Below are positions 19,105 to 38,485 of a stretch of DNA of 44,320 bases, one piece after another. A model generated the notes under the pieces. It ran no database searches, was not told the origin of the DNA, and saw nothing but the letters and a program-made list of their open reading frames with translations. The position numbers and the translations under genes were made by a program. The stretch spans positions 1 to 44,320 of the forward strand of contig JABUEW010000023.1 of assembly GCA_013314855.1 (NCBI GenBank), given 5' to 3'. The DNA comes from Bacillota bacterium. GTDB lineage: Bacteria > Bacillota > Clostridia > Acetivibrionales > DUMC01. Position 1 is the first letter of the stretch, and each line of letters starts with the position of its first letter.

Positions 19105-19419
19105 ATGGAACAACCAATTTTCAGTATAAATGAAATAAAAACAAAACTATTTCCGGTATTTGAAACCGCCCCTGTCTATCGCGCCATACTGTTTGGTTCG
19201 TATGCCAAAGGTAGCCCCACCGGCAATAGTGATATAGATATTGTCATAGACAGTAAAGGCGAGCTTTTAAACATGGATTTTTACGGAGTATTGGAAGACA
19301 TTACAACCCGGCTAGGTAAACGTGTTGATCTTTTTGAGATTACGGAACTAAAAAACAATGCAACCATGCAATCCATAATAGAACGGGAGGGAATTGTTTT
19401 ATATGATCGGCAAAGATAG
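19105..19419 (+). CDS. MntA-like minimal nucleotidyltransferase (antitoxin)
   Basis: The 104-residue protein (RBS GAGTGGTGAG, ATG 19105) carries GSYAKGSPTGNSDIDIVID, the G31-S32-x10-D43-x-D45 motif of minimal nucleotidyltransferases; D43 and D45 bind the metals. MntA antitoxins neutralise the HEPN ribonuclease HepT by adding AMP residues next to its active site. Its length fits the family, and all key residues seen are intact. The gene overlaps the start of a broken hepT by 17 bases, showing that the two were once one operon. Since the toxin is ruined, MntA here is an orphan. Family assignment is firm; present function is uncertain. Confidence 0.9.
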   Translation: MEQPIFSINEIKTKLFPVFETAPVYRAILFGSYAKGSPTGNSDIDIVIDSKGELLNMDFYGVLEDITTRLGKRVDLFEITELKNNATMQSIIEREGIVLYDRQR

Positions 19420-19796
19420 GATTATTTTGTAAAAGATTAGCACTTATATAGACGATGTGATACAGTATGTTGACGGTTTTTCTTTCGAGGACTTTATGGC
19501 AGATAAAAAAACCCTTTCTGCCTGTGCCTTTTCAGTTTCTCAAATTGGGGAGCTGGCAAAGGAAATCAGCGGGGATACGCAGGAGAAGTATGACTATATA
19601 CCTTGGAAGGAAAGGCATTCGGGGCATGAGAAACAAAATTGTACACGTTTATGAAAACATTGATTTAGCAGTGCTTTGGGGAATCATTACAAAAAGTTTA
19701 CCGGAGCTTGCCAAGCAAATTGATGGTGTCTTATATAACGAAGTTGAGAAAATCAATGTTTTGGACGATGAAGAAGATGAGGAAGTTGAGAGGTAG
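19403..19796 (+). pseudogene. HepT-like HEPN ribonuclease toxin, broken by a stop codon and a frameshift
   Basis: Translation from ATG 19403 gives MIGKDRIIL, then TAA (19430-19432) where a CAA glutamine would fit, then KISTYIDDVIQYVDGFSFED and SVSQIGELAKEIS, the HepT N-terminal half. Near 19600-19625 the frame shifts by a 4-base insertion (TGGAAGGAAAGGCATTCGG, where removing AAGG or AGGC restores WK-x-IRGMRN). The other frame then gives IRGMRNKIVHVYENIDLAVLW to a TAG at 19794-19796. The HEPN active site R-x4-H (RNKIVH) lies after the frameshift, so no single product can contain both the N-terminus and the catalytic residues. Two independent lesions mark a pseudogene, not a sequencing slip alone. 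Confidence 0.85.
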
Positions 19797-21305: not shown

Positions 21306-21421
21306 ACTAATATCACCTGCCACAGATATTATTTTGTTTTTTATAGAAGTTGGTTACTCTAAATAATAAAGCTATTATACAGCAATAATTGCAATAATAC
21401 AAGCAATATATGCAAAGAAAG

Positions 21422-21449
21422 TTGCAAATATATTGGGATATAATATAAT
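21422..21449 (+). promoter_or_regulatory. Putative promoter of the pfp operon
   Basis: TTGCAA (21422-21427) and TATAAT (21444-21449) are separated by 16 bases, 93 bases before the first start codon. Just upstream, 21380-21430 has repeated GCAA-centred words (ATTGCAATAA, CAAGCAATAT, ATGCAAAGAA, GTTGCAAATA) at near-helical spacing that could be an AraC-type operator; this last point is speculative. Confidence 0.4.
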
Positions 21450-21541: not shown

Positions 21542-22831
21542 ATGCCAAGACCTAAAAATGTAATTGTTGCCCAGTCGGGAGGGCCCACTCCTGTTATAAA
21601 TAATTCTCTAAGGGGAGTAATTGATACCTGCAAGGAATATGGGAAAATATTCGGCACTGTCTATGCTGGCTGGCACGGTGTTGAAGGAATTCTCAAGGAA
21701 GAGCTCCTTAACTTAAGCAGCCAGGATGAAGAAGAAATAGCTCTTTTGAGGACGACTCCCACAGCTGGTTCTATCGGTACCTGCAGGTATAAATTGAAAA
21801 AGCAGCAGGAAGAAGACTTTGAAAGAATAATTGAAGTACTTAAGGCTCATGATGTAGGGTACCTTTTCTATATTGGCGGAAACGATTCTATGGATACGGC
21901 CAATAAAATAAGCAAGCTTGCCCACGAAAAGGGTTTGGATCTTGTTGCCATAGGAGTACCAAAGACCATTGACAACGATGTAGGGGATTCCGAATTTAAA
22001 CTTATAGACCACACACCTGGTTACGGAAGCGTGGCACGTTATTGGGCCTCCATGATCCAGAATGCCAATGAAGAGAATGCAGGTTCATGCCCTTCGGATC
22101 CCGTCCTTGTATTGCAGGCAATGGGTAGAAAAATAGGGTTTATACCTGCTGCAGCAAGGCTTGCGGATCCAAATAGGGAACTCCCCCTGCAAATATATAT
22201 GGTAGAATCAAAAGTTACTTTGGAAGAAATGGCCGAAAAGGTAAATGAGCAGCTGAAAGCTTCGGGAAGATGTATTGTTGTGGTAAGTGAAGGGTTCCCT
22301 GTAGGAGATATTGGAGAAACCAAGGATTCATTCGGGCATACCCAGTTTAGTGCAAGTCAGACTACGGTTGCCCAGGTGGTGGTCAACTACTTAAACAAGG
22401 TCGGGCTTAAAGTTAGGGGAACAGCAAGAGGGCAAGTACCAGGTACTGACCAGAGGGGATGTATTAATATGGCTTCGCCTGTTGACCTTGATGAGGCGTA
22501 TAAGCTGGGGCAAAAAGCCGTACAGATAGCTGTAGAAGACGGAAATGGTTATATGTCCACCATTTTGAGAAAACCCGGCCCTATATACAATGTTTATTTT
22601 GATAAAGTACCCCTGGAGCTGGTAGCCAATTCGGAACGTACGTTCCCGGAATCCTGGATTGCCTCAAATCGTATCGATGTTACCGATGAGTTTATTAAGT
22701 ATGCAAAACCATTGATTGGCGAAGATTGGGTAAGCATACCCATGGTAGGTGGAAGAATGCGCTTTGCCAGGTTAAAACCGATATTTGCGGAAAAGAAGCT
22801 AAAACCTTATGTGCCGCAAGCATATAGGTAA
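21542..22831 (+). CDS. PPi-type 6-phosphofructokinase (diphosphate-fructose-6-phosphate phosphotransferase-like)
   Basis: The 429-residue protein (RBS AAAGGAGAG) has the phosphofructokinase fold: VIVAQSGGPTPVINNSLRGV at the N-terminus, G112-G-N-D-S116, and P140-K-T-I-D144-N-D146 with the catalytic aspartate and the lysine that marks PPi use. Asp in place of the glycine that ATP enzymes have in GGDGS (here GGNDS) also points to diphosphate as donor. It phosphorylates fructose 6-phosphate reversibly in the cytoplasm. It is the first gene of an operon with a HAD phosphatase, 6-phosphogluconate dehydrogenase and a LarA-like enzyme. In this setting it could also act on another sugar phosphate. Confidence 0.9.
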   Translation: MPRPKNVIVAQSGGPTPVINNSLRGVIDTCKEYGKIFGTVYAGWHGVEGILKEELLNLSSQDEEEIALLRTTPTAGSIGTCRYKLKKQQEEDFERIIEVLKAHDVGYLFYIGGNDSMDTANKISKLAHEKGLDLVAIGVPKTIDNDVGDSEFKLIDHTPGYGSVARYWASMIQNANEENAGSCPSDPVLVLQAMGRKIGFIPAAARLADPNRELPLQIYMVESKVTLEEMAEKVNEQLKASGRCIVVVSEGFPVGDIGETKDSFGHTQFSASQTTVAQVVVNYLNKVGLKVRGTARGQVPGTDQRGCINMASPVDLDEAYKLGQKAVQIAVEDGNGYMSTILRKPGPIYNVYFDKVPLELVANSERTFPESWIASNRIDVTDEFIKYAKPLIGEDWVSIPMVGGRMRFARLKPIFAEKKLKPYVPQAYR

Positions 22832-22858
22832 TAAAAAAATCTAAGGAGGCGAAATGTA

Positions 22859-23749
22859 ATGACCAATGTTGCGCAACCCCTTATAGAAATGAAGAAGGAA
22901 AAAGGCTTTTTGATTTGTATCGATTCTGACGGATGTGCTTTTGACACCATGGAAGTAAAGCATAAGGAGTGCTTTATTCCCAATATAATTAACGAGTGGG
23001 ATTTGCAGGCTATTTCAAAATATGCAAGAGAGGCTGCGGAGTTTGTAAACCTTTATTCAAAGTGGAGAGGTATAAATCGTTTTCCGGCTTTGATCAATGT
23101 TATGGACCTTTTGGCCGACAGAGAAGAAGTAAAAAAACGTGGATTTAAAGTGCCTGATTTAGGGCCTTTACGCAAGTGGATTGAGAAGGAAACAAAACTT
23201 GGGAATCCTGCACTTGAAGCTGTAGTTAAAGAAACGAAGGACCCTATTCTTGCAAAAACCTTGAAATGGTCTATCGCAGTAAATGATACGGTGGCTAAAA
23301 TTGTAAGAGGTGTACCTCCTTTTCCATTCGTACGTGAAAGCCTGGAAAAAATGCTTGAGTTTGCGGATGTTATTGTAGTTTCGGCAACACCTGGGGAGGC
23401 TCTGGTAAGAGAATGGGAAGAGCATGATATTGCAAAGTATGTAAAGGTTATAGCCGGCCAGGAAATGGGCACCAAGGCAGAATGTATCGGTTTTGCAAAG
23501 GATAAACGTTATGAAGATAATAAAGTGCTCATGGTTGGTGACGCACCCGGAGATTTAAAAGCAGCAAGGGTTAATAACGCTCTTTTCTATCCAATTAACC
23601 CCGGAAATGAAGACGATTCCTGGGAACGCTTCTATAAAGAGGCTTTTGACAAGTTTATTAAGGGTGAGTATGCAGGAGCATATGAAGAAAAATTGATTGC
23701 GGAGTTTGATAAATATTTGCCGTCAACACCGCCCTGGAAGAAAAAATAG
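22859..23749 (+). CDS. HAD-superfamily hydrolase (probable sugar-phosphate phosphatase)
   Basis: The 296-residue protein (RBS AAGGAGG, 27 bases after the pfp stop) has HAD motif I as IDSDGCAFDTM (nucleophile Asp and second Asp), motif II in VVSATPGEAL, a lysine in MGTKAECI, and motif IV KVLMVGDAPGDLKAA. A helical cap of about 110 residues lies between motifs I and II. HAD enzymes of this type remove phosphate from small metabolites. Neighbours (phosphofructokinase and 6-phosphogluconate dehydrogenase) suggest a sugar or sugar-acid phosphate substrate; the sequence does not say which. Confidence 0.85.
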   Translation: MTNVAQPLIEMKKEKGFLICIDSDGCAFDTMEVKHKECFIPNIINEWDLQAISKYAREAAEFVNLYSKWRGINRFPALINVMDLLADREEVKKRGFKVPDLGPLRKWIEKETKLGNPALEAVVKETKDPILAKTLKWSIAVNDTVAKIVRGVPPFPFVRESLEKMLEFADVIVVSATPGEALVREWEEHDIAKYVKVIAGQEMGTKAECIGFAKDKRYEDNKVLMVGDAPGDLKAARVNNALFYPINPGNEDDSWERFYKEAFDKFIKGEYAGAYEEKLIAEFDKYLPSTPPWKKK

Positions 23750-23876
23750 GGTTTTAGTCCAGTAAAAAATCGGTAATCATACGGTAAGGCAAGCTTGAAA
23801 TTAAGGTGGACATGTAAAAATTTAAATTGGGAAAGAAAAAGTAATTTAGAAATAAAAATCGAGTAGGAGGGTAATT

Positions 23877-25328
23877 ATGAGTAAAGCGGATATTGGACTT
23901 ATAGGTCTTGCAGTTATGGGTGAAAACCTTGTTCTGAATATGGAGAGCAAAGGTTTTACAGTTGCGGTTTTCAACCGTACCGTTGATAAAGTAAAAAGTT
24001 TTGTTGAAGGCAGGGGTAAAGGTAAAAACATAATTGAGACTTATTCACTGGAAGAGCTTGTTGGAGCTCTGAAAAAGCCACGTAAAATCATGCTGATGGT
24101 AAAGGCTGGGAAACCAGTGGACGATTTTATTGAAATGCTAGTTCCCCTTCTGGAGAAGGGAGATATAATAATCGATGGGGGGAATTCGCATTTCCCTGAT
24201 ACCATACGCCGTACTAAATATGTTGAGGAGAAAGGGCTTCTTTATATCGGGACAGGGGTTTCCGGAGGCGAAGAAGGAGCACTTTTGGGCCCAAGCTTAA
24301 TGCCCGGAGGTTCTCCTGAAGCTTGGCCTCATGTTAAACCAATCTTCCAGGCAATAGCAGCAAAAGTTGAAGATGGTTCTCCGTGTTGTGATTGGGTAGG
24401 GGAAAATGGGGCAGGACATTTTGTAAAAATGGTGCATAATGGAATTGAATACGGCGACATGCAGCTTATATGTGAAGCTTACCATTTAATGAAAGATGTT
24501 CTTGGAATGTCTGCGGATGAAATGCATGAAGTCTTCAAAGAGTGGAATGAGGGAGAGCTGAACAGCTATCTTATTGAAATTACCCGGGATATACTTGCAT
24601 ACAAGGATGAAGACGGACTTCCCCTGGTAGATAAAATTCTCGATACTGCAGGGCAGAAAGGTACAGGTAAATGGACAGCGATTGCAGCTCTGGATGAAGG
24701 CATTCCATTAACACTGATAGGAGAAGCGGTATTTTCAAGGTGCCTTTCAGCCATGAAAGAAGAGAGAGTTAAAGCATCAAAAGTCCTCTCCGGACCTGCA
24801 CCGGGGTTTGAAGGGGATAAAAAGGCATTTATAGAAGATATAAGGAGAGCTCTCTATGCATCAAAAATAGTTTCATATGCTCAAGGCTTCACACTTATGC
24901 GCGCTGCTGCCCAAACTTACGGTTGGCACCTTAACTATGGCGGGATTGCCCTTATGTGGCGCGGCGGCTGTATAATCAGGTCGGTATTTCTTGGTAAAAT
25001 TAAAGAGGCTTTTGAAAAGAATTATGAATTGCCAAACCTTTTATTGGATCCATTCTTCAAAGAAAAGGTTATATCCTCCCAGGACAGCTGGAGAAAAGTA
25101 GTATCAACAGCAGTTGTCAATGGAATTCCGGTGCCTGCATTTGCTTCCGCTCTTTCATACTATGACGGTTATAGAAGTGAAAGGCTGCCTGCAAACCTGT
25201 TACAAGCACAGAGAGATTACTTCGGTGCCCATACCTATGAGCGCATAGACAGGCCGCGTGGAGAATTCTTCCATACCAACTGGACAGGCCGCGGAGGTAC
25301 AACTTCTGCGTCGACATATAATGTGTAA
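23877..25328 (+). CDS. gnd: 6-phosphogluconate dehydrogenase, decarboxylating
   Basis: Gnd oxidises and decarboxylates 6-phosphogluconate to ribulose 5-phosphate with NADP+ (or NAD+) in the cytoplasm. The 483-residue protein (RBS AGGAGGG) has the dinucleotide motif [12 protein letters not shown] (7-18) and the substrate/catalytic motif [19 protein letters not shown] with K184. FNRT after the second strand of the Rossmann fold, with arginine at the expected site, favours NADP. The C-terminal segment [16 protein letters not shown] is typical. Length is that of the long dimeric form. It lies 127 bases after the HAD gene. Confidence 0.96.
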
Positions 25329-25382
25329 TGTGTAAGGGTAGGTAAAATTTTCATTCTTATTTATTAAGGCAGAGGTGGAAAA

Positions 25383-26660
25383 ATGGTGGAAATAATTATG
25401 AAGTCAAAAGCGTGCGAAGGCATAAACGATATTGAGTTAAAGAAAGCCCTTGAGTGTTCTATAGAGGCAAAAAGAGCAGGCTTGAAAAAAGTGTTGCTTA
25501 TACCTCCCGATTTTACCAGGGGACATTCCGGTGCTGGTAAAATTACGGCAATGTACTTTGAAATGCTGAAAGACACCTGCCAGGTTGATATAATGCCTGC
25601 CCTGGGAACCCATGAGCCTATGACAAAACAGGAATGCCTGGAGATGTTTGGGGAAGGTATACCCATGGATCGCTTTATTGCCCACAACTGGAGGACAGAT
25701 GTTGTGAAAATTGGGCAAGTGCCGAGAGAATTTGTTGAGGAAGTGTCTGAAGGACTTTTAAACGAACCTGTTGATATAGAGATTAATAAGCGTTTGTTGG
25801 ATAAATCCTATGATTTAATAATATCCATAGGCCAGGTGGTACCCCACGAAGTTATTGGAATGGCCAACTACAGCAAAAATATTTTTGTAGGATGCGGTGG
25901 AAGCTCAACCATTAATAAATCCCACATGTTGGGTGCATTTTATGGAATGGAAAGGATTATGGGAAGGGACCATTCACCTGTAAGAAAGGTTTTTGATTAT
26001 GCCGAAGAGAACTTTATAAAGGATATTCCCCTTATGTATGTTCTTACAGTAACTACTGCAAAAGAAAATAAAGTATTTATACATGGATTATTTATAGGAA
26101 GAGAAAGGCATATACTGGAAGAAGCCATCAAGTTAAGCCAGGAAAAGAACCTTACTTTCGTAGAAAAGCCTTTTAAGAAGGTTGTTGTATTCCTTGACGA
26201 GAAGGAATTTAAAAGCACATGGCTTGGCAATAAGGCTGTTTACAGGACAAGGATGGCAATTGCCGATGGCGGGGAACTTATTATACTTGCACCCGGTGTA
26301 AGGAAGTTTGGAGAAGATGATGAAAATGATGTACTCATCAGGAAATATGGGTACGTGGGAAGAGAAAAGGTTCTCCAGCTTGTTAAAGAAAATGAAGATC
26401 TGCAAAAGAACTTATCCGTTGCGGCACACCTTATCCATGGCTCATCGGACGGAAGGTTTTCAATTACATATGCAGTAGACAAATTAAGCAGGGAAGAAGT
26501 GGAAGGCGTTAATTTTAAATACATGCCCCTGGAAGAGGCCTATAAAAAGTATAACCCTAAAAAATTGAAAGATGGTTACAATACACTGGATAATGGAGAA
26601 GAGATATTCTATATCAGTAACCCTGCTTTAGGGCTGTGGGCTGATAAGAGTAAGTTCTAA
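25383..26660 (+). CDS. LarA-like nickel-pincer racemase/epimerase homologue
   Basis: The 425-residue protein (RBS AGAGGTGG) aligns by eye with lactate racemase LarA: D43-F-T-R46, H77 in LGTHEPMT, H155 in PHEVIGMANY, K165 in SKNIFVG and H181 in NKSHMLG. In LarA the equivalents are H108, H174, K184 (which bears the nickel-pincer cofactor) and H200; the 10- and 16-residue spacings of the last three are identical here. LarA homologues invert 2-hydroxy acids, including sugar acids. In an operon with Gnd and a HAD phosphatase a sugar-acid epimerase is likely. No larB, larC or larE cofactor genes are in the window, so the nickel-pincer would have to be supplied from elsewhere. Confidence 0.85.
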   Translation: MVEIIMKSKACEGINDIELKKALECSIEAKRAGLKKVLLIPPDFTRGHSGAGKITAMYFEMLKDTCQVDIMPALGTHEPMTKQECLEMFGEGIPMDRFIAHNWRTDVVKIGQVPREFVEEVSEGLLNEPVDIEINKRLLDKSYDLIISIGQVVPHEVIGMANYSKNIFVGCGGSSTINKSHMLGAFYGMERIMGRDHSPVRKVFDYAEENFIKDIPLMYVLTVTTAKENKVFIHGLFIGRERHILEEAIKLSQEKNLTFVEKPFKKVVVFLDEKEFKSTWLGNKAVYRTRMAIADGGELIILAPGVRKFGEDDENDVLIRKYGYVGREKVLQLVKENEDLQKNLSVAAHLIHGSSDGRFSITYAVDKLSREEVEGVNFKYMPLEEAYKKYNPKKLKDGYNTLDNGEEIFYISNPALGLWADKSKF

Positions 26661-26690
26661 GTTTGTGAAATGTATTAAAGGAGTACGGCG

Positions 26691-27810
26691 ATGCTAAATA
26701 AGCTTAAAGAAGATTTTCTTAATCCGGCTTCCGAGTTTACTCCAATTCCCTTTTGGTTTTGGAATGACTGCCTTGATAAGGATGAAATAATACGGCAAAT
26801 TAATGGCTTCAAAGAAAAAGGGGTTGATGGATTTGTAATACATCCAAGGATAGGGATTCCTGAGGCTATTGAATATCTGTCGGATACATACATGGAGTAT
26901 GTTGAAACTGCTGTTGAAGAAGCATCAAGATTGAAGATGACGGTATTTTTATACGATGAGGCCATGTATCCCTCGGGGTCTGCCCATGGAAAGGTGGTGG
27001 AAGGCAACCCTGAATATGCAAGCCGTGGGTTAAAAATGATTGAATATCCATGTAAAGGTGAGACAGAAATTAATGTGAAACTTGAAAAGGGAGAGAGTTT
27101 GGTATCGGCACAGGCTGTTATAAAGATATCTGAAAGAGAAATAAACCCTGATAGTATAAGGAAATTGGGTTTTGACAATGGTAAAATCAAATTTATCCCT
27201 TACTAAACTGGTAGAACTCCTGGACAGATTTATTAAACGTGACGTTGTTTTAATTCCTTCAAATGACGATTTAAGGGTTAGCCATGTGGTCAAAGGTGGG
27301 GTGCATTTTTATCTATTGGTAAATGAAGGGGAGGAAAGTATAAAGGGTGAATTAAAGACAAACGTAATAGGGAGAGTTGAGAAGTGGGACGCATGGAATG
27401 GAAAATGTGAGGAAATTGTAGTGCATGGGGAAACTGTAGCGAGTGAGGCAAGAATTCCCTTACTTCTCCAAAGAAGAGAAAGTGCAATACTTTGTATTGA
27501 TACATCACGGCCACCTAATATAGAGACTTCCAACATCGTTCGAAGGGAAACAATGAGGCGGATAAAAGAATTAAAACCGGATAATGAATGGGACATAAGA
27601 ATTGATGAACATAAAGTTGATGGAAGCTTTATGTATAAATCATGGACCCAGTGGCCTGGAATGGAAGATTACTGGGGGACGGTTAGTTACAAGAATGAGT
27701 TTGTAATAGATGCAGATGAAATGGAAAATATAACTTCAGTTGTACTAGATTTGGGTGAAGTATATGAAATAGCCCATATAATTGGTTTCTTTAAAATGTG
27801 CATATTTTAA
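26691..27810 (+). pseudogene. Large glycoside hydrolase pseudogene (GH106/alpha-L-rhamnosidase-like), internally deleted and truncated
   Basis: Behind AAAGGAG, ATG 26691 opens a 171-codon frame that begins like the catalytic domain of a large glycosidase (PFWFWNDCLDKDEIIRQI, VDGFVIHPRIG, VFLYDEAMYPSG). It stops at 27204-27206. From about 27190 another frame (LVELLDRFIKRDVVLIPSND, SHVVKGGVHFYLLVNEGEE, RIPLLLQRRESAILCID) carries what looks like the C-terminal part of the same family of proteins, which are usually over 800 residues. Several hundred residues are missing at the junction, and the end is also cut: LDLGEVYEIA is followed by unrelated codons to a stop at 27810, which overlaps the convergent prepilin peptidase gene. 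It was probably the operon's glycosidase. The family name is moderate confidence. Confidence 0.7.
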
Positions 27811-29381: not shown

Positions 29382-29566
29382 TGTATGATTGTAAAAGATA
29401 CAGTTTAATTCCCTCCCGTGAGATTAATAAAAGAAAATTGACGGGTTTGGTATAAGCTATAAATTCTACTAAGAAAATTCCGATAACTATTTTATAAAGG
29501 ATTATCATGCCCATACTACTTAGACTTTATGGCTATAAACTGTAAACTTTATATTGGGGGTTGGCG

Positions 29567-32500
29567 ATGAAGGCGCTTAATAAAACGCTGGTTTTCGTGC
29601 TGGTTATTAGCTTTATATTTGCATTTTATTTTCCTTTACCGGAAGGTATTTTTGCAGCATCTATGTCAATAAATATTTATGTGGAAAATTACAAGGACGG
29701 CACCCTGAATATCAAGTGGGATGCTTTGCCTCAAGCTGAGACGGTTAGGATTTCCTACCATTCTCCTCTTTCTTTAAACCCGGATAAGCTTGAAACTTTT
29801 GTATTGCCACATGTAAGTAATGAGGCTGAAATTACGGGACTTATTAATGATGTAATTTACGATATTGACTTAATAGTGTACAATAACATGGGAATTGAAA
29901 TAGGGAGGGGATTTTTATATTTTCTTCCTGGCATAACTTTTCAGGCAAAGATTCTTAACCAAACTTACAGGGATATTGAGGGGGGAGGCCGGGAAATTGG
30001 CATAGATCCCGGTGTGAACCTTAAATGGGCAGTGCCCAAGGTTTGGGATGGGGATAAGTTTGATTTTTCCCATAATGCCCTTTCATATATGGAGGAACAG
30101 ATAGAGAACGTCTACAATGACGGAAGAGAAATAAGTAAACTGAATTACAGGATAAACATTTCTACTGATTCATCAAAGTTAGATGGCAGCTCCTTGCAGG
30201 CTGCGGTAATTATTGATTATGACTGTGATAATGAAGAATATTTGGCTTATGTATCCGGAAATGAGTTGTTGAAGTCAAAAGTCCGCTGCATGGATGCAAA
30301 CGGATTTATGAATTTTGACCTGATTGGAAGAAAGGATAATGAAGCCGAGCTACCCCAACCCCTTGAATACCAACTGCCCCATGCAGGAATTTTGCCCGGA
30401 ACTGTGTACTATATGAATATAAAACCTGTGTTCCAGGACAGCAATAACTCTCCTGTTAGAGTTGTTACTGTGGGAGCTCCGGAGGCAATGAACGGAAGCC
30501 CTCTTTTAGGGCCTGTTTCATACGTGTTTACCCCTACAAGGTTTCAAATTACAAAGGACGACATGAATAATATCTACATTAAAATTTACAGAATAAATCA
30601 AGGAAGCCTTGATTTACCTAGGCTCTATTATGAAGTACAGTCAATTGATGATCCCACGGTATCGGGCGATTGGGTGGTGAAAAGGAGAATTGACGATACA
30701 TATTTCAGTGGAGGTATTGCTGTTACTGTGATATCGGGTGTAAACCCGGATAATGAATTTTTCTATAAAATTGTTGTGAAATCCGATAATGTAGATGACA
30801 GGCTTGAATCTTCCAAAATGCCCTATACGTTGGTTAAAGACAAAAGCAGGCCGCCTGTACCTGTCAATATAAGTATAATAGAAAGATTATATTCTCCTGG
30901 AATGGTTATTTATCCCGTAACGGGGGAGGAGGTACTTGTCAAGTCTACAGATGTAACTATATGTTGGGATAAGCCTGAAGACTGGGAATTAATAAAAGAT
31001 GACTTATATTTCCATATAATGTTAAGCACCAATCAGACTGACCTGGACAAGGATGTAGAACTTTATGCTGATGGTATTAACTGGGGAAGCTATCGTGTGA
31101 AATACCGGCTTGTGAAGTATATAAGCGCAAAATCGCCCAACATTAAAGAAATTGGGAGCAGGCTTTCCTATACTATTAAAGGATTTGAGCTTTTTAGAGG
31201 TGAAGGTGATGATGGAGTAGCTGATGAGTTAATAGACAATCCTGACAATTATCCCCATTTTCTTCTACCAAACAGGGTTTACTATATACAAATGTATACC
31301 ACAAGAGCTGTTGATGCTGGGGCTCAAGAACCTTCAAAAACATCGGACAAGTCACTGGTTAAAAGCTTTACTACTCTTTCGGGAATAGAAAGGGATGTAC
31401 CTTCACCTGCAAATGTAAAGGTTAACAAAAATGAAATAGACAAAGATACAAAACAAAATGTAATTGAGCTTCAATTTGATAAGGTAAATATTGATTGGAA
31501 CCTATACACTGATAATTCCGATACGGAAAAGGCAGTATATTATGATTTATACATGAGTACGAGGACAGAAGCCGATTCCTTTATATGTATTGGGACTACG
31601 CAGTACCTCGATAGGGATGTAATATTTAGAGGGATAGATGACCCAGGAAGCAGTTATATCAGGGCAACTGTAAGCAGTTTCAGAAAAGATGTTAATAAAT
31701 ATATTCCGGATAATGACAGTGACTATATTGACCCTTATGAAGTATTTGGGGCAGGTTTAAGGCCTAATACAGTATATTATTTTGTTTTAAGAACGAGATT
31801 AGCTATTGAGGGACAACCGCGGGACAGGGAATCTTCACCTACGCCTGTATTGGCAGTAACTACTCCGAGAACTGACATAAGTGAACCGGATGAGACTGCC
31901 AGAAGACCGCTGGCTCCTTCTGACTTTAGCATTGCCTTGGATAAGGAAGGAAATCCTGAAGTTTCAGGGTCAAGAGTAACCTTCAGCTGGACTTTATTAG
32001 AACAGGGAGTATCATACAGGCTGATATGCACTTCGGAAAGGGTTGAGCCGGATGCAGACTCATCGGCATATGAAAATGACCCGGTTTATAGGAGTTTCAT
32101 TGCCCATTTTGGAAATAAGGACAGTGATGGGGATAAAAACACATATACTTTAAATCCCGAAAAAGATTTAAAGGAGGGTGTGTTTGAATATGACAATATA
32201 ACAAAAACATATAAACTTACCATTGATGAGTGGCTTTTCCCCAATAGCCTCTATTATTTCAGCATTAAAGCGCAAATAGAGGGAAAAGAAAGTGTATGGG
32301 TGTCTATACCGGTAACAACCGCCATTATTGAAATGCCTGATTTACTTGAACCAATATATGACTCTGAAATAGGGTTTTTCTGGTATGAATATAACAGCAA
32401 CATAAAGGCAGAAGATTATAAAATCTATTTAAAAGGGCCGAAAGATAATGACTATAAACAGGTAAATAAATCCGACATTATATTGATAAAGGATGGTATG

Positions 32501-34435
32501 GTGTTTTATGCAAGGATAAGAAATCTTGAGCCTGATTCAGCGTATAGTATAAAGGTTTATAGAGGTGAAAATAACTCCATCCTCACATATGAGAAGGAAA
32601 ACATATACACAAGGCAGGCCTGTTATGAGATTGAAGTAAAATGGAGAGGGACGGAAGGGTATGAGTATGAAATTGCGGTAAGAACAGAGGATGATGAAGA
32701 TTATATTACAGTCAATGATGCTGGGCTTGAGCATTTTAAAGATAGGTACGAACGCACCCTACCCTATTATGTTGAAAAAACCTCCCAAACAACCGGAACT
32801 GATAAAAGCTTCTATTATGCAAGAATAAAGTCCATACCCCGTACATCTTCTAACGGGCAGGTAATACAGTCCCCACTTGAGCCAAATACTAAATATTATG
32901 TTAAGGTAAGGGCTTTAAAGGTCGACCCGTTAGATAATACCCTGGTGGCATATTCAAAGTATATAGGGCCTGTGTTTTTACGTACGGAATTTAGCCAGGG
33001 AGATTATGACAGGAAGGAAGAAGAAGAAAAGAGAAGGGCTGTTTTCGAAGATAAAATAGAAGAATTCGAGAACGCCTTATATTGGGAGATTAACACGTGG
33101 AATAGTTCCGAGTATGTAGTTTTGTTGAAAGGAGACAGAATTGCCAATTATATTGCCAATAGCAGAGATTCTTCTGTTTTACTGGACTTAGGGGACATGC
33201 CTTATGGTGTAAATACCAATATAATGTATGTCCCCGAAAATGTAGTCAATGTGCTGAAACAGGAGAATAAAGAGCTTAAAATAAATATTGCGGGAATTAG
33301 TTGCAGTTTCAGACCGGGAACTTTATATGTCCTGGAAACTATGGAAGTCAAAAAGCTTAAAGATAACCAGGGAGTAAAGGAGACTTTTATTGAGCTGAAA
33401 ATCGCACTAAAAAACGGTCCCATAGCCGGCCTGCCTTCAAATACTAAGCCTGTATCCCCTGTTGTAGAATTTGGGATAAAGGCCTTTGGGACATCAAAGA
33501 CTTATGACGAACTTAAAAATATGATTGAAAATAGGTTGTATAATTCTGAAACGGGCCTGGTTAAGGAAAAAACAACATTTATTGTAGATTATTACGGCCG
33601 GGCTATATCTGATGATAAAATTGAGGAATATATGGAGGGGTTGATAAGGCAAATGGAAAAAGAATTGTCTTTGTTTATACAAAACACTTTACAATGGATG
33701 AAAGTTAAAAATGCAGAAACAAACATAAATTCCTTTGGAAGCTCTTTAAGTATAAAACTTCCTGTAGATTATAACTCGCAGGGGTTAAATGTGCCCTATG
33801 TGAAATATATGGGTAATGAAAAATGGTCAAAAGTGTCACAAAATGTAAACCATTATGAAACGTTTGTAGCCTTTAACGTCGTAGCTCCGGGGGAATATGT
33901 TTTGCTTGGAGAAAAACAGGAATATAAAGATATCCCTGGAGACTATCCTGATAAAGGCCATATCCTGGACTTTATATCAAAGTATGATGTAGCAGGAATA
34001 TTTAATTTGTCTGGCGGATACTTTTACCCTGAACGAAGCGTATCCGTAAAAGAAGCTGTGCTACTGTATGAGTTGGTAATGGGGAGGACAGGAGAAGGTA
34101 CCGCGTTGGACATAAAAGAAAAGGTGAAAAGGTTGGGCTTAGAAGGCATAATAAATGCCGGTGCTCCTGCCAGGGATATAACAAGGCAGGAAACCGCCGG
34201 GTTAATAATGAAAATGTACTCTGTAAAAGCCGGGGTAGATTATGACCGGTTAAGACCGGTGAATTACGTTTTTATAGAGGATGAAGGAGATATAAATGAT
34301 AAATACTATAAAGCAGTAGTAATTCTTGTTGAAAATGGTATCATGAAACTTGACGACAGAAGGTGTTTTGGACCTGGAAAACACATAACCCGTGGAGAAA
34401 TGCTTGCAGCCATGGATAAGATTATTAATAATTAG
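29567..34435 (+). CDS. Giant secreted FnIII-array protein with SLH-type C-terminus (1622 aa)
   Basis: ATG 29567 follows a GGGGG site. Residues 1-32 form a signal peptide (TLVFVLVISFIFAFYFPL, cleaved near FAAS). About 1100 residues of beta-sandwich repeats follow; fibronectin III-like units are recognisable from strands such as LNIKWDALP, VTICWDKPEDW, VTFSWTLL and the recurring LxPNTxYYxxxxT segment (for example LRPNTVYYFVLRT, LEPNTKYYVKVRA). Next comes a module of roughly 290 residues (SSEYVVLLKG, DLGDMPYG, FRPGTLYVLE) shared with the next gene. The last 170 residues hold three degenerate SLH motifs (ISKYDVAGIFNLSGGYFYPE, VKRLGLEGIINAGAPAR, YYKAVVILVENGIMKL). Expected at the cell surface. It is 28 bases upstream of its paralogue and likely co-transcribed. 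Function unknown. Confidence 0.85.
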   Translation: MKALNKTLVFVLVISFIFAFYFPLPEGIFAASMSINIYVENYKDGTLNIKWDALPQAETVRISYHSPLSLNPDKLETFVLPHVSNEAEITGLINDVIYDIDLIVYNNMGIEIGRGFLYFLPGITFQAKILNQTYRDIEGGGREIGIDPGVNLKWAVPKVWDGDKFDFSHNALSYMEEQIENVYNDGREISKLNYRINISTDSSKLDGSSLQAAVIIDYDCDNEEYLAYVSGNELLKSKVRCMDANGFMNFDLIGRKDNEAELPQPLEYQLPHAGILPGTVYYMNIKPVFQDSNNSPVRVVTVGAPEAMNGSPLLGPVSYVFTPTRFQITKDDMNNIYIKIYRINQGSLDLPRLYYEVQSIDDPTVSGDWVVKRRIDDTYFSGGIAVTVISGVNPDNEFFYKIVVKSDNVDDRLESSKMPYTLVKDKSRPPVPVNISIIERLYSPGMVIYPVTGEEVLVKSTDVTICWDKPEDWELIKDDLYFHIMLSTNQTDLDKDVELYADGINWGSYRVKYRLVKYISAKSPNIKEIGSRLSYTIKGFELFRGEGDDGVADELIDNPDNYPHFLLPNRVYYIQMYTTRAVDAGAQEPSKTSDKSLVKSFTTLSGIERDVPSPANVKVNKNEIDKDTKQNVIELQFDKVNIDWNLYTDNSDTEKAVYYDLYMSTRTEADSFICIGTTQYLDRDVIFRGIDDPGSSYIRATVSSFRKDVNKYIPDNDSDYIDPYEVFGAGLRPNTVYYFVLRTRLAIEGQPRDRESSPTPVLAVTTPRTDISEPDETARRPLAPSDFSIALDKEGNPEVSGSRVTFSWTLLEQGVSYRLICTSERVEPDADSSAYENDPVYRSFIAHFGNKDSDGDKNTYTLNPEKDLKEGVFEYDNITKTYKLTIDEWLFPNSLYYFSIKAQIEGKESVWVSIPVTTAIIEMPDLLEPIYDSEIGFFWYEYNSNIKAEDYKIYLKGPKDNDYKQVNKSDIILIKDGMVFYARIRNLEPDSAYSIKVYRGENNSILTYEKENIYTRQACYEIEVKWRGTEGYEYEIAVRTEDDEDYITVNDAGLEHFKDRYERTLPYYVEKTSQTTGTDKSFYYARIKSIPRTSSNGQVIQSPLEPNTKYYVKVRALKVDPLDNTLVAYSKYIGPVFLRTEFSQGDYDRKEEEEKRRAVFEDKIEEFENALYWEINTWNSSEYVVLLKGDRIANYIANSRDSSVLLDLGDMPYGVNTNIMYVPENVVNVLKQENKELKINIAGISCSFRPGTLYVLETMEVKKLKDNQGVKETFIELKIALKNGPIAGLPSNTKPVSPVVEFGIKAFGTSKTYDELKNMIENRLYNSETGLVKEKTTFIVDYYGRAISDDKIEEYMEGLIRQMEKELSLFIQNTLQWMKVKNAETNINSFGSSLSIKLPVDYNSQGLNVPYVKYMGNEKWSKVSQNVNHYETFVAFNVVAPGEYVLLGEKQEYKDIPGDYPDKGHILDFISKYDVAGIFNLSGGYFYPERSVSVKEAVLLYELVMGRTGEGTALDIKEKVKRLGLEGIINAGAPARDITRQETAGLIMKMYSVKAGVDYDRLRPVNYVFIEDEGDINDKYYKAVVILVENGIMKLDDRRCFGPGKHITRGEMLAAMDKIINN

Positions 34436-34462
34436 ATGCTTAAAATAAGAGGGGTACTTGTT

Positions 34463-37400
34463 ATGATGAAATCCTTAATTCCTTCTAATACAATGAACAC
34501 AACAAAAATAATAAAAATGGTAAGAATAGTTGGGATAAAAATAATAAGAATAATAGGCAACAGGAATCTGCGAGGACTTTTAGCTGCATTATTGGCTGCA
34601 AGTGTTATTCTGCTGCCTTTTTCCCAGTTTCTGCGCTATAGTACTGTTTTTGCTCAAACCATACCCATGCAGCCCGCACCTGAAAAATTAAGGGTTGAAG
34701 CTATATACAATACTCCGCCGGATGTTCAGCCTCCTATAGGTTATAATGAGTTTGACGGGTATTATGCAGATCTTAAATGGGACCCTTTAAAGAATCCTGA
34801 ACCAAATATCGCACAGAGCAAATATATGAACTTTTACCTCCAGGAGGTTGCTAAACCTTATAAGCCTACTATACCCATTGTACTCAAAGAAGCAAATATA
34901 CCGGCAAATCCTGGGTCTGCCACTACCTTGAGGATGAAGGGCCTTTCCTCGGGAACCGTATATTATACCTATGCTACAGCTTGGTACACATATGTGCAAA
35001 ATGAAACCTCCCTTAAAAGCCCCGAATCAGTCCCTTCGAACATGGTCAAATTTCTTACCGATATCCAATTGGAAGCTTATTCATATGGTATAAGGCAAAT
35101 CAAAATTATTTGGGACGATGTATGGGAATCCGGGCGGCGAATAGACTATAAATTGTATATTTCTGAAGACAGGAGTTTTACCAATACACCTCCAATATAT
35201 ATAAGGCAGTTTGATATTGGTCCTGGTAGACCAGTAAGCGTAAACGAAAATACCGGAAAATTGGAATATATTTATACTGTGAGAGACCCTGGAAGAGTCT
35301 ATTATATAAAGATAATGCCAGATATAACCGACACTGAACTCAAACATTCTAAAGAGAGTAATGTGGTAGCGGTAAGCAGTTTTATCCTTGCCAAAACGAC
35401 AAAGATGGCATCTACTGAAACTGGAACAATATGGAAAATAGAGTGGAGTCCGGTTGTTACAGGGCTGAATACAGGAGATGTTAAAATAACCTACCATATA
35501 TATAGGGGAGTTCTTGATTCTAATGATATTCCACAATATGTAGCTGCAGTGGATGATACCATTTTTATTACTACTCTTTTACCTGAAGATGAAAATAACT
35601 ATTATTTTATAATCAGGGCTTTTGTTACCAGGCAGGGAATAGATGTTTACCCTGGAATAAAAATTGAATCGGACAAAATTATTATACGGGAGACGGAAGT
35701 TCCCTACATTCCTGCTGCCCCCTTATTGGTAGATAAGTTTGAGGACAGGGATGGGAGAACTATAATAAGTTATATTGAAGAGTTAAAGCCTGATTTGGCA
35801 ACCATACTTTGGAGAGTTCCCGAGACAGGAAAGGGGACGGTAGATATTGATATAAGCTACGATATATGGCTTATTAGTGATCCCAATATGATAGATTCTC
35901 CTCCTGAGAGCACAAAAATTGCTTCATCAATAAAAATGACTGACGCAAACAAGGTTATGGACGGAAGTAAACTGGTAGGATATAAATACAATATTTCTAA
36001 CCTTACTCCAAATACAATATATTACTTTAAAATTACTGCTAAAAAATCTTTTATTGATTACGAAGGAGAACGGTTGGAAGAAATAACATTAAGCTCGGAA
36101 CCGGTGGTTAAGGTTATAATAACACCGCCTGAAGACATTGCCTACCTCCCTCTTGTTCCCGGCAGGCCTCCGCTGAAACTTAAAAAACATCCGGGACAAC
36201 CGGACAAATATATGATTACGGAAACTACAGCCGTAATACAGCTTAAGGATAAATGGTATGAAGAATATAATCACAGCACCGGGAAATGGGAGTACAGGGC
36301 ACCTGAGGAATTGGGAGAAGAAATAATTGACCAGCTGGAGAAAGGTACCGGCAGCAATGATTACCGTATAGTCCAGTATGACAGTGGAATTTCTTTGGAT
36401 GTAGGATGTGTGGAACACAAGGAAGGAATGTCTTACAGTGATATTGCGAAGATACCGGCAGATAAGGTTAAGGGTTTTCCTGCTGCCCCCAATGATCCTT
36501 ATGAAGACCCACTACTAAACCCCGATAAGAAGAAGCATAATATTGACATTATTTTGACTGATCTTAAACCAAATACATCCTATATTGTATGGGTCAGGGC
36601 CGTAAGGACAGCATACGCCCTTGTTTCAGGACCTTCCGACCCCATAATTATTACTACAACCCCGGAACTTGTTGTACCTGTAGAAAAGCCTACAGTCCCA
36701 TCGTTTAACTACTATCATGCCGGCGACAATTTTGTTGACCTGGGATGGGATTTTAGGGCAGGGTATTATTATAATATAAAATATGGCACAGAGGATAATA
36801 TTAATTCTGCGAAAGGTTCTGCAGAAGTAAAACCGGAAGACTTGTTTTATGCTGCCTATTATAGAATAAAAGGTCTTGAACAGGAAAAGGTGTACTATTT
36901 CTGGATACAGGCTGTAGCTGTAGGAGCTGATGGGCAGAAGGTGCCTTCTGACTGGAGCGATTCTCTTGTTGTTAAAACATTACCGTATATACCTCCTGAA
37001 ACACCACGCGGCTTTGGTGTAAAGAATACCAAAGATGCAGTAACAAAAGATAGTATTACATATGAATGGATTATGGAGGATGGAATTGAGTATATTATTG
37101 AAATAGCGGGTGATATAGATTATAACGGTTCCATAGAGTATAAAGCCGGTAAGGTATCTGAATTTACTGTGGAAGGTTTAAGGTCAAATTACAGGTACTA
37201 TGCAAGGCTATATGCCTACGACCCTGAGAAAGACTTAAGGTCCCTTCCTACTCAAAGTGTTGTATGCAGGACCAGGAGGAGTCTTTTGGATTACGACTCT
37301 GATGAGTACGCAGAAGACGTAATAAAAGGAGACTACATTGTAAAAGAATATATTATAAAGGATAATACCTGGAATATAAGGATTGAAGGAATTAATGCAG

Positions 37401-38485
37401 ATATGTTCATAGAAAACATGATGAATGATAATGTAGTTGATTATATACTAGATGTTACAGATACTCCTTACGGGACAAAACACATAGTTATATCAATTTC
37501 TGGCAGAGTTTTTGATGCAATGTATCAATTAAAAGAAAACCTAATAATACTAAATCCAGTAAACCAGATAGTTATGAGGCCTGGAGTTTTTGCAGGAACA
37601 AATATAAAACAATTTTACAATTCTAATTATGAAATAACAATTACATTAAAGGATGAAATAAATGGTGCAATTCCTGAAAGCAAACTAGGAGGTATTAAAC
37701 TTAAAACAGATGTTACAGGACTTAAAATACGGATCAGGAATGGACAACTGTTTAACCCCATCTACAGGTTGGGTAATCCCTTACAGATTATATATTCTTA
37801 TTCCGGACAGGAATGGAATATTCCCGGGGTTACTACAGGGTTAATCTATGATATGGTTTTACCCGGATGGGAAAAAACCGATACCATATCAGAATTTGAT
37901 ACAGATTTGGACAAAGGCCGCCTTATATTTGACATGCCTGTTACCGGTGGCATGGCTGTGGGGGACTATACAAAAGACAAATATGACGACATAAGTGCAA
38001 GCAGATACAGGACAGCCATTAATAATGTGGCTTCAGCCCATGAATTGAAAAGCATAAAAGGAAACCTTTTTTATATAGGTAAAGATCTTTCAGTAGCAGA
38101 TGCAGTTAAGTTTATATTGGATGTAATGGACTACGATTATGGGAATAATTTCCTTAATGCTGCTTTAAGGGCGGGAATTATTAGTAAAACAGACCTGGAT
38201 ATGCCCGAGAAAGGCTGCACCAGGGAGAAAGCCTTGTTTATGGCAGCCCGGCTTTATGAGCTAAAAACGGGAGAAAAGGCGAAACCACGAGAAAATGGAC
38301 CATATCCTTTTAAAGATATGGACAAAATTTCACCACATTTTCTTGATAAAGTAAAATTTGCAATCGAAAACGGGTTTATGTCATACAGAATCAGCGACAT
38401 GTTAGAACCGGACAGCGTTATAATGAGAGGCGAGTTTATGGGAATTCTTGAGAAGGTGCTTGAGGCTGCCGGGGAATTGAATTAG
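34463..38485 (+). CDS. Giant secreted FnIII-array protein with SLH-type C-terminus (1340 aa), paralogue of the preceding gene
   Basis: ATG 34463 is chosen because AGAGGGG lies 8 bases upstream; an ATG at 34436, directly after the preceding stop, has no site. A long basic N-terminus leads to a hydrophobic signal (LRGLLAALLAASVILLPFSQF, cleaved near VFAQ). Fibronectin III-like domains follow, with strands such as IKIIWDDVW, WKIEWSPVV, ATILWRVPE, VDLGWDFRA and ITYEWIMED, and the phrase LTPNTIYYFKITA seen in the paralogue. A module near residues 960-1175 (NTWNIRIEG, DVTDTPYGTKHIVISI, MRPGVF) matches the one in the preceding protein. The C-terminus has divergent SLH motifs (VKFAIENGFMSYRISDMLEP). 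Surface-located, function unknown. Confidence 0.83.
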   Translation: MMKSLIPSNTMNTTKIIKMVRIVGIKIIRIIGNRNLRGLLAALLAASVILLPFSQFLRYSTVFAQTIPMQPAPEKLRVEAIYNTPPDVQPPIGYNEFDGYYADLKWDPLKNPEPNIAQSKYMNFYLQEVAKPYKPTIPIVLKEANIPANPGSATTLRMKGLSSGTVYYTYATAWYTYVQNETSLKSPESVPSNMVKFLTDIQLEAYSYGIRQIKIIWDDVWESGRRIDYKLYISEDRSFTNTPPIYIRQFDIGPGRPVSVNENTGKLEYIYTVRDPGRVYYIKIMPDITDTELKHSKESNVVAVSSFILAKTTKMASTETGTIWKIEWSPVVTGLNTGDVKITYHIYRGVLDSNDIPQYVAAVDDTIFITTLLPEDENNYYFIIRAFVTRQGIDVYPGIKIESDKIIIRETEVPYIPAAPLLVDKFEDRDGRTIISYIEELKPDLATILWRVPETGKGTVDIDISYDIWLISDPNMIDSPPESTKIASSIKMTDANKVMDGSKLVGYKYNISNLTPNTIYYFKITAKKSFIDYEGERLEEITLSSEPVVKVIITPPEDIAYLPLVPGRPPLKLKKHPGQPDKYMITETTAVIQLKDKWYEEYNHSTGKWEYRAPEELGEEIIDQLEKGTGSNDYRIVQYDSGISLDVGCVEHKEGMSYSDIAKIPADKVKGFPAAPNDPYEDPLLNPDKKKHNIDIILTDLKPNTSYIVWVRAVRTAYALVSGPSDPIIITTTPELVVPVEKPTVPSFNYYHAGDNFVDLGWDFRAGYYYNIKYGTEDNINSAKGSAEVKPEDLFYAAYYRIKGLEQEKVYYFWIQAVAVGADGQKVPSDWSDSLVVKTLPYIPPETPRGFGVKNTKDAVTKDSITYEWIMEDGIEYIIEIAGDIDYNGSIEYKAGKVSEFTVEGLRSNYRYYARLYAYDPEKDLRSLPTQSVVCRTRRSLLDYDSDEYAEDVIKGDYIVKEYIIKDNTWNIRIEGINADMFIENMMNDNVVDYILDVTDTPYGTKHIVISISGRVFDAMYQLKENLIILNPVNQIVMRPGVFAGTNIKQFYNSNYEITITLKDEINGAIPESKLGGIKLKTDVTGLKIRIRNGQLFNPIYRLGNPLQIIYSYSGQEWNIPGVTTGLIYDMVLPGWEKTDTISEFDTDLDKGRLIFDMPVTGGMAVGDYTKDKYDDISASRYRTAINNVASAHELKSIKGNLFYIGKDLSVADAVKFILDVMDYDYGNNFLNAALRAGIISKTDLDMPEKGCTREKALFMAARLYELKTGEKAKPRENGPYPFKDMDKISPHFLDKVKFAIENGFMSYRISDMLEPDSVIMRGEFMGILEKVLEAAGELN

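Follow-up and report, generated by a model that had tools for sequence, protein, structure and literature searches.

The locus studied here raises the question of what a LarA homolog (lar) does in one operon with the genes for a decarboxylating 6-phosphogluconate dehydrogenase (gnd), a HAD phosphatase (had), and a phosphofructokinase-like enzyme (pfk). It lies in a stretch of 44,320 nt (hereafter the window) from Bacillota bacterium GCA_013314855.1 (contig JABUEW010000023.1, positions 1 to 44,320), where a divergently transcribed araC gene is followed by pfk, had, gnd, and lar and then by two glycosidase remnants. The four enzyme genes share the + strand, where 27 bp (pfk/had), 127 bp (had/gnd), and 54 bp (gnd/lar) lie between them, and 218 bp separate araC, on the − strand, from pfk. 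A first-pass annotation of this DNA had placed these open reading frames (ORFs) correctly. We consider it likely that they form an AraC-controlled C6 sugar-acid operon, the products of which would convert mannonate to gluconate, 6-phosphogluconate, and finally ribulose-5-phosphate. This reading is based on the gene order, the protein families, conserved residues, the presence of larB, larC, and larE, a candidate operator held in common with related operons, and the linkage of lar to gnd.

With a cut-off of 500 bits, the lar product reached 668 bits for NF052594, the model of a nickel-dependent putative hexonate epimerase; none of the other four LarA models listed gave it more than 54.5 bits. 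The closest solved structure was 4nar (E = 8e-34), followed by 2yjg (E = 1e-4); 4nar is GntE2 of Thermotoga maritima, a demonstrated D-mannonate/D-gluconate 2-epimerase of LarAH20 (PMC7583248). The residues named in the first-pass annotation (D43, R46, H77, H155, K165, and H181) are all in place: LarA D72, R75, H108, H174, K184, H200, and K298 correspond to D43, R46, H77, H155, K165, H181, and K284 of the window protein, and the first six are identical in 80 of 80 relatives, these being the best 80 of 131 lar relatives from named genomes. The GntE signature, namely E, V, A, and H at the positions of LarA F175, F176, W358, and T359 (PMC11770544), is present as E156, V157, A348, and H349. These four residues, along with the equivalents of two group features taken from PMC7583248, W280 and K284, are each kept in 79–80 of the 80 relatives; the correspondences of A348, H349, W280, and K284 were set by hand from the alignment to GntE2. 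Membership in NF052594, the residues, and GntE2 as the nearest structure support an assignment as a mannonate/gluconate epimerase.

The cofactor genes larE, larB, and larC, which the first-pass annotation had proposed to look for in the genome, occur together on one contig (C10) with scores above cut-off, and lar does not fall into a clade with a known unrelated substrate. The predicted nickel-pincer enzyme inverting C2 of a gluconate/mannonate-type acid thus agrees with the signature residues, with the NCBIfam name, and with neighboring genes for Gnd and mannonate oxidoreductase in relatives. The genome also encodes a second LarA (contig C5, L186: 470-3197), a lactate racemase according to model NF033504 (609 bits; cut-off, 460 bits). 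It adjoins a GlcD-like FAD oxidase, and the pair probably serves lactate use.

The window Gnd scored 792 bits against the TIGR00873 equivalog (cut-off, 427 bits). When neighbors within 5 kb on the same strand were counted, gnd was found near lar in 64 of the 80 loci (42 of 50 among loci away from contig ends). The other neighbors were PfkB (38 loci), PHP phosphatase (24), SDR (12), FGGY (7), and, more rarely, UxaC (5), PFK (2), and HAD (2). A representative of the SDR neighbors was scored as D-mannonate oxidoreductase (443 bits; cut-off, 281 bits) and one of the UxaC neighbors as glucuronate isomerase (597 bits; cut-off, 387 bits), while the solved structure nearest to the neighboring PfkB was 2afb, 2-keto-3-deoxygluconate kinase, which is a C6-acid kinase. 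A kinase gene accompanied 46 of the 64 gnd-bearing loci (PfkB in 37, FGGY in 7, and PFK in 2), and two were never found together. As a control, eight loci with other LarA proteins matched 0 of 13 query proteins at E 1e-8, although with flanks of about 1.5 kb this control is weak. The PHP-type phosphoesterase gene mostly stands between lar and gnd (L048, L051, L054, and others among L037-L116), and represents a second kind of phosphatase recruited into lar operons.

Conservation of the gene order, which the first-pass annotation had proposed to check, therefore extends to lar and gnd and not to pfk and had, which accompany lar in only 2 of the 80 loci. The idea that PFK and HAD complete a family-wide set is not supported, because the operons of a genome of the same genus (G046) and one of the same family (G047) also run araC-gnd-lar and have no pfk-had. 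In view of these two operons, the pfk-had cassette was gained or lost. Downstream of its lar, G047 has a 1744-residue ORF (L177).

Control by AraC, also part of the first-pass annotation, gained support from a candidate operator common to related araC operons, to which AraC would bind. The element was first found by aligning araC intergenic regions and consists of two GCAAT-N-TGC-type boxes and a TTGCAAA box; a search for its core gave a single hit in the window and none in 100 shuffles. Using the matrix from seven operons, we found five new sites outside the training set (L104, L257, L038, L179, and L053; 22.6–43.0 bits), all just upstream of such operons, and the next best locus scored 12.7 bits. 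The operator thus precedes the first gene in 12 loci, the window and 11 related ones, and the gene after it encodes Pfk, Gnd, PfkB, or mannonate oxidoreductase in 12 of 12. It is pfk in the window, L042, and L164, and pfkB in L180, L185, and L257. A divergent araC is present at 8 of the 12 loci: the AraC of the window scored 77 bits for HTH_18, and at the seven others its homologs (198–503 bits) stand divergent to operons that begin with gnd, pfk, pfkB, or the SDR gene. The possible promoter matches 10 of 12 consensus positions, but promoter-like sites in the region number 29 versus 25.8 in shuffles, so this match is weak alone. As judged from these sequence patterns, the window and its near relatives have good support for AraC control, and the family as a whole does not.

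Features of the operon and its surroundings in the window
Feature	Position	Strand	Basis
araC, AraC-family regulator, 297 residues	20430..21323	-	HTH_18 and AraC_binding above cut-off
Candidate AraC operator, 53 bp	21378..21430	+	Matrix from 7 operons; 29-base core
Possible promoter TTGCAA-16-TATAAT, overlapping the operator end	21422..21449	+	Consensus match
pfk, divergent PPi-phosphofructokinase-like enzyme	21542..22831	+	PRK14072
had, HAD-superfamily phosphatase	22859..23749	+	HAD_2
gnd, decarboxylating 6-phosphogluconate dehydrogenase	23877..25328	+	TIGR00873
lar, LarA homolog of group 18, predicted D-mannonate/D-gluconate 2-epimerase	25383..26660	+	NF052594
Rhamnosidase-like glycosidase remnant, N-terminal piece	26691..27206	+	Weak alpha-L-rhamnosidase match
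Rhamnosidase-like glycosidase remnant, C-terminal piece	27172..27810	+	Weak jelly-roll match

In the proposed route, whose substrate, direction, and step order we infer, the LarA-group-18 enzyme, carrying the nickel-pincer cofactor that LarB, LarC, and LarE synthesize, would invert D-mannonate at C2 and so yield D-gluconate. This would be phosphorylated by a kinase to 6-phosphogluconate, which Gnd would oxidize and decarboxylate to ribulose-5-phosphate with production of NADPH. The kinase might be the divergent pfk product using pyrophosphate (PPi) or, alternatively, a PfkB hexonate-kinase-like protein encoded elsewhere in the genome. HAD would most likely clear a wrongly made phosphate ester such as 6-phosphomannonate. 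Of the 22 genomes checked, 17, including the window genome, gave no transaldolase; for this reason, we propose that ribulose-5-phosphate may re-enter glycolysis via sedoheptulose bisphosphate made by the ordinary Pfp encoded on contig C5, by extension from PMC10339645.

A known gluconokinase (FGGY or PfkB) was not found in the window operon, where pfk is the sole kinase-like gene. Its product scored 384 bits against PRK14072 (cut-off, 273 bits) and retains, as do the ordinary Pfps of Clostridia in our set, the GGND and PKTIDND motifs, which we take as marks of PPi use. Among 391 genomes of the class, the sample used for pfk and HAD matches, 14 matches in 13 genomes were set apart (at least 520 bits and 57–100% identity), whereas among the matches listed the ordinary Pfps scored at most 270 bits with about 35–43% identity. 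In a quick tree of 35 rows, these 14 matches and two named loci formed a clade of 16 rows (SH-aLRT 100; stem, 1.81 changes per column), inside which a subclade of 11 rows (SH-aLRT 100; stem, 0.53) holds every had-linked pfk. In all 16 rows, 5 residues are inserted after TIDND and 4 before the QR motif, which reads GTDQR in the subclade, VLQR or ILQR in the other five rows, and mostly LLQR or similar in ordinary Pfps. The inserts and, in the HAD-linked subclade, GTDQR are what distinguish the clade. Loss of the 6-phosphate residues R162 and H249 was discarded as proof of a new substrate, as ordinary Pfps of Clostridia are also without them (PMC10339645). The altered acceptor loops cast doubt on fructose 6-phosphate (F6P) as the substrate; on the other hand, most acceptor-site motifs of ordinary Pfp are kept (MGR, QR, and, in 14 of 16 rows, SEG, GEG, or NEG), so that the substrate is not fixed by sequence alone. 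The ordinary Pfp of the window genome (594 bits) falls in the same NCBIfam subfamily as the pfk product and stands here for ordinary Pfps of Clostridia such as that of C. thermocellum (PMC10339645). A second member of the divergent clade in the window genome (C1:89272-90540, L189) is of the VLQR type and 65% identical, and no hexonate genes were recognized beside it.

The retained acceptor motifs make it possible, though not probable, that the pfk product has remained a kinase of sugar phosphates, acting on sedoheptulose 7-phosphate (S7P) or F6P and handling the pentose phosphates derived from Gnd. The window genome, with no transaldolase detected, would accommodate such an enzyme, and the C. 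thermocellum Pfp phosphorylates S7P (PMC10339645). However, we keep a sedoheptulose kinase replacing transaldolase only as an alternative reading, since the window genome also encodes an ordinary Pfp; likewise, 10 of the 13 clade genomes have a further PFK match at E 1e-60 among the matches listed. Two genomes also without transaldolase (G037 and G051) have an ordinary Pfp as their only PFK match among those listed, and the long stem of the clade and the new inserts in two loops further argue against an unchanged function.

Tentatively, and as a rather unlikely case judged from sequence, pfk may instead encode a PPi-dependent hexonate 6-kinase acting on gluconate or mannonate, with HAD as its proofreading phosphatase, and would then stand in for the PfkB or FGGY kinase of other LarA/Gnd operons. 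One point in its favor is that pfk, where it comes first after the operator, occupies the slot taken by pfkB in some related loci. The gene had adjoins pfk in 10 of the 11 subclade rows, the exception (L231) standing alone, and the set pfk-had-gnd is found again in L042, L092, and families f55 and f57. The order is pfk-had-gnd-SDR-lar in L156, L158, L159, and L160, SDR-lar-x-pfk-had-gnd in L157, and lar-pfk-had-gnd in L092; in L155 the contig edge comes directly after gnd, and in G186 the set is split over two contigs (L164, araC-pfk-had; L236, gnd-lar). Clade PfkB of at least 512 bits was found in 11 of the 22 genomes checked. It was not found in G149, G173, G218, G238, G278, and G330 (best match, at most 105 bits), an absence that is uncertain at a completeness of 69–91%, and G186 (61% complete) had only a 40%-identical match. 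In these seven genomes the search for other kinases covered the FGGY type and not the GntK type (TIGR01313); matching to an operon FGGY at E 1e-20 yielded ten FGGY kinases of at most 29% identity, 6 of which were xylulokinases above cut-off and 4 of which had no family above cut-off among those listed. Because of these four, an FGGY gluconokinase may serve there. We keep our confidence in a PPi-dependent hexonate kinase low, both for this reason and because the PfkB-less genomes are also without the operator. If it exists, it would add a new class of substrate to the PfkA family and would give sugar acids a way into the pentose phosphate pathway that costs no ATP.

Similarly unlikely is that pfk-had is a separate module joined to the AraC operon and that the true gluconate kinase is the PfkB encoded on contig C146 of the window genome (559 bits), beside what appears by eye to be a GPH-type transporter. 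The araC-gnd-lar operons of G046 and G047 fit such a joining, as does the GTDQR member L231, alone in its genome region, and PfkB is present in each of the five genomes with VLQR/ILQR-type members, adjacent to pfk in G397. Yet the operator was not seen near the C146 gene within 9.8 kb, and the recurrence of pfk-had-gnd speaks against this reading. Six of the genomes with this recurrent set are those apparently without PfkB, but the pfk-had-gnd operons of L092 and L155-L160 have no operator site and no araC homolog nearby.

The had product, for its part, appears from its sequence to be an intact HAD phosphatase. It exceeded the HAD_2 cut-off (27 versus 23.8 bits), HAD_2 was found in 21 of 21 homologs, and D22, D24, S175, K206, D228, and D232 are invariant in the 21 aligned sequences. 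We take D22/D24, S175, K206, and D228/D232 to be the four HAD motifs with an Asp nucleophile. No close solved relative was found: a profile of the 21 homologs against the PDB gave E values of 0.0023 or worse, the weak matches being two HAD hydrolases and three copper-ATPase sequences. A structure predicted from three sequences had a mean pLDDT of 59 and was not used. HAD relatives were matched in 32 of the 391 genomes, a few weakly, and some of them also adjoin UxaC, mannonate oxidoreductase, or, by eye, a UxuA-like or GH3-like gene. At L170, L172, L174, L191, and L193 they stand directly beside the GH3-like glycosidase gene (by eye), a pairing that hints at a sugar or sugar phosphate on which both products act, with no connection to lar and gnd.

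Several observations weigh against the mannonate-gluconate route as a whole. In 16 of the 80 named loci, gnd was not seen near lar. At the level of the order, 21 of 58 genomes exceeded the NF052594 cut-off in 22 places, and of the 11 places whose surroundings were examined 5 had gnd and 6 did not, some of these contigs also belonging to the 80 named loci. The operator exceeded 20 bits in only 4 of the 80 loci (L042, L104, L038, and L053), which indicates that most lar relatives are regulated otherwise. No UxaC was found in the window genome, nor any SDR mannonate oxidoreductase above cut-off, and LarAH18 is absent from the table of tested homologs in PMC7583248. Lastly, extracts of Lactobacillus suebicus show the opposite order, with phosphorylation before epimerization (PMC6978723). 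By analogy, mannonate could be phosphorylated first and the LarA homolog could be a 6-phosphomannonate 2-epimerase giving 6-phosphogluconate directly, and the kinases of lar operons are compatible with either order. We regard this as improbable, because the pocket of the LarA homolog carries the signature of enzymes with demonstrated activity on free D-mannonate (PMC7583248), and we met no LarA homolog acting on a phosphorylated acid in the excerpted literature covered. It is more improbable still that the epimerase acts on another aldonate or aldarate while Gnd independently takes its usual substrate; in favor of this is GntE1, a similarly featured enzyme whose KM for mannonate is very high and whose native substrate is unsettled (PMC7583248), but the recurrent lar-gnd linkage and the mannonate oxidoreductase neighbors speak against it.

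The N-terminal glycosidase remnant matched an alpha-L-rhamnosidase model with 25.6 bits over residues 12-134 (cut-off, 1300 bits) and PDB 5mqm at E = 6.5e-5; the C-terminal remnant matched a rhamnoside jelly-roll model with 22.9 bits (cut-off, 50 bits) and no PDB entry at E 0.01. The two overlapping ORFs fit a decayed gene with its middle missing. The former glycosidase of the first-pass annotation is thus plausible as a decayed rhamnosidase-like gene, but is poorly defined by its weak and partial matches, and the suggestion that the operon served a specific polysaccharide was dropped as unsupported, since these weak, broken pieces have no relatives in the 80 loci at E 1e-8. Further downstream (29561-38485) are two very long ORFs (1624 and 1349 residues); by eye, the first looks like a secreted, repeat-rich surface protein. 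Upstream (19105-19796), inspection by eye suggests a small nucleotidyltransferase-like ORF and, after it, a possible HEPN-type partner; the two may be an MNT/HEPN toxin-antitoxin pair.

In the open-access literature covered, we found no description of the window operon, nothing joining a nickel-pincer enzyme with 6-phosphogluconate dehydrogenase, no PPi-dependent gluconate kinase of the PFK family, and only PMC6978723 on mannonate kinase. The first-pass annotation knew of no named pathway for the set, but its core is known from T. maritima, in the UxaR operon aldH-pelB-gnd-uxaRED-gntE-gntK (PMC3750489) and in the activity of GntE2 (PMC7583248). As in the window, gnd there shares an operon with a LarA-family mannonate/gluconate 2-epimerase, and mannonate has been proposed to enter the pentose phosphate pathway in this way. 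The T. maritima system differs in having LarA group 20 instead of group 18, UxaR instead of AraC, a dedicated gntK, and uronate genes in the operon, with no PFK or HAD described in the excerpts of PMC3750489. The window operon is, on this comparison, most likely the clostridial counterpart of the gnd-gntE-gntK route of Thermotoga, known in outline, to which a possible PPi-dependent hexonate kinase would be the new part. The pfk clade may have moved from sugar phosphates to another acceptor and, if PPi-dependent, would provide anaerobes with an unusual ATP-sparing entry for sugar acids.

PMC7583248 defines groups 18, 19, and 20 by pocket residues and offers a hexonate substrate for group 18 as a hypothesis from those residues. 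The window protein belongs to this group by score and residues, and the operon and operator evidence added here gives group 18, apparently without a tested member, a specific substrate prediction. In L. suebicus, a mannonate kinase and a 6-phosphomannonate 2-epimerase, the genes for which were not identified, similarly join the isomerase pathway to 6-phosphogluconate dehydrogenase (PMC6978723), and LarA group 18 with its kinases is of the kind that this route requires. The bridge between mannonate and gluconate in Thermotoga would extend to many Clostridia.

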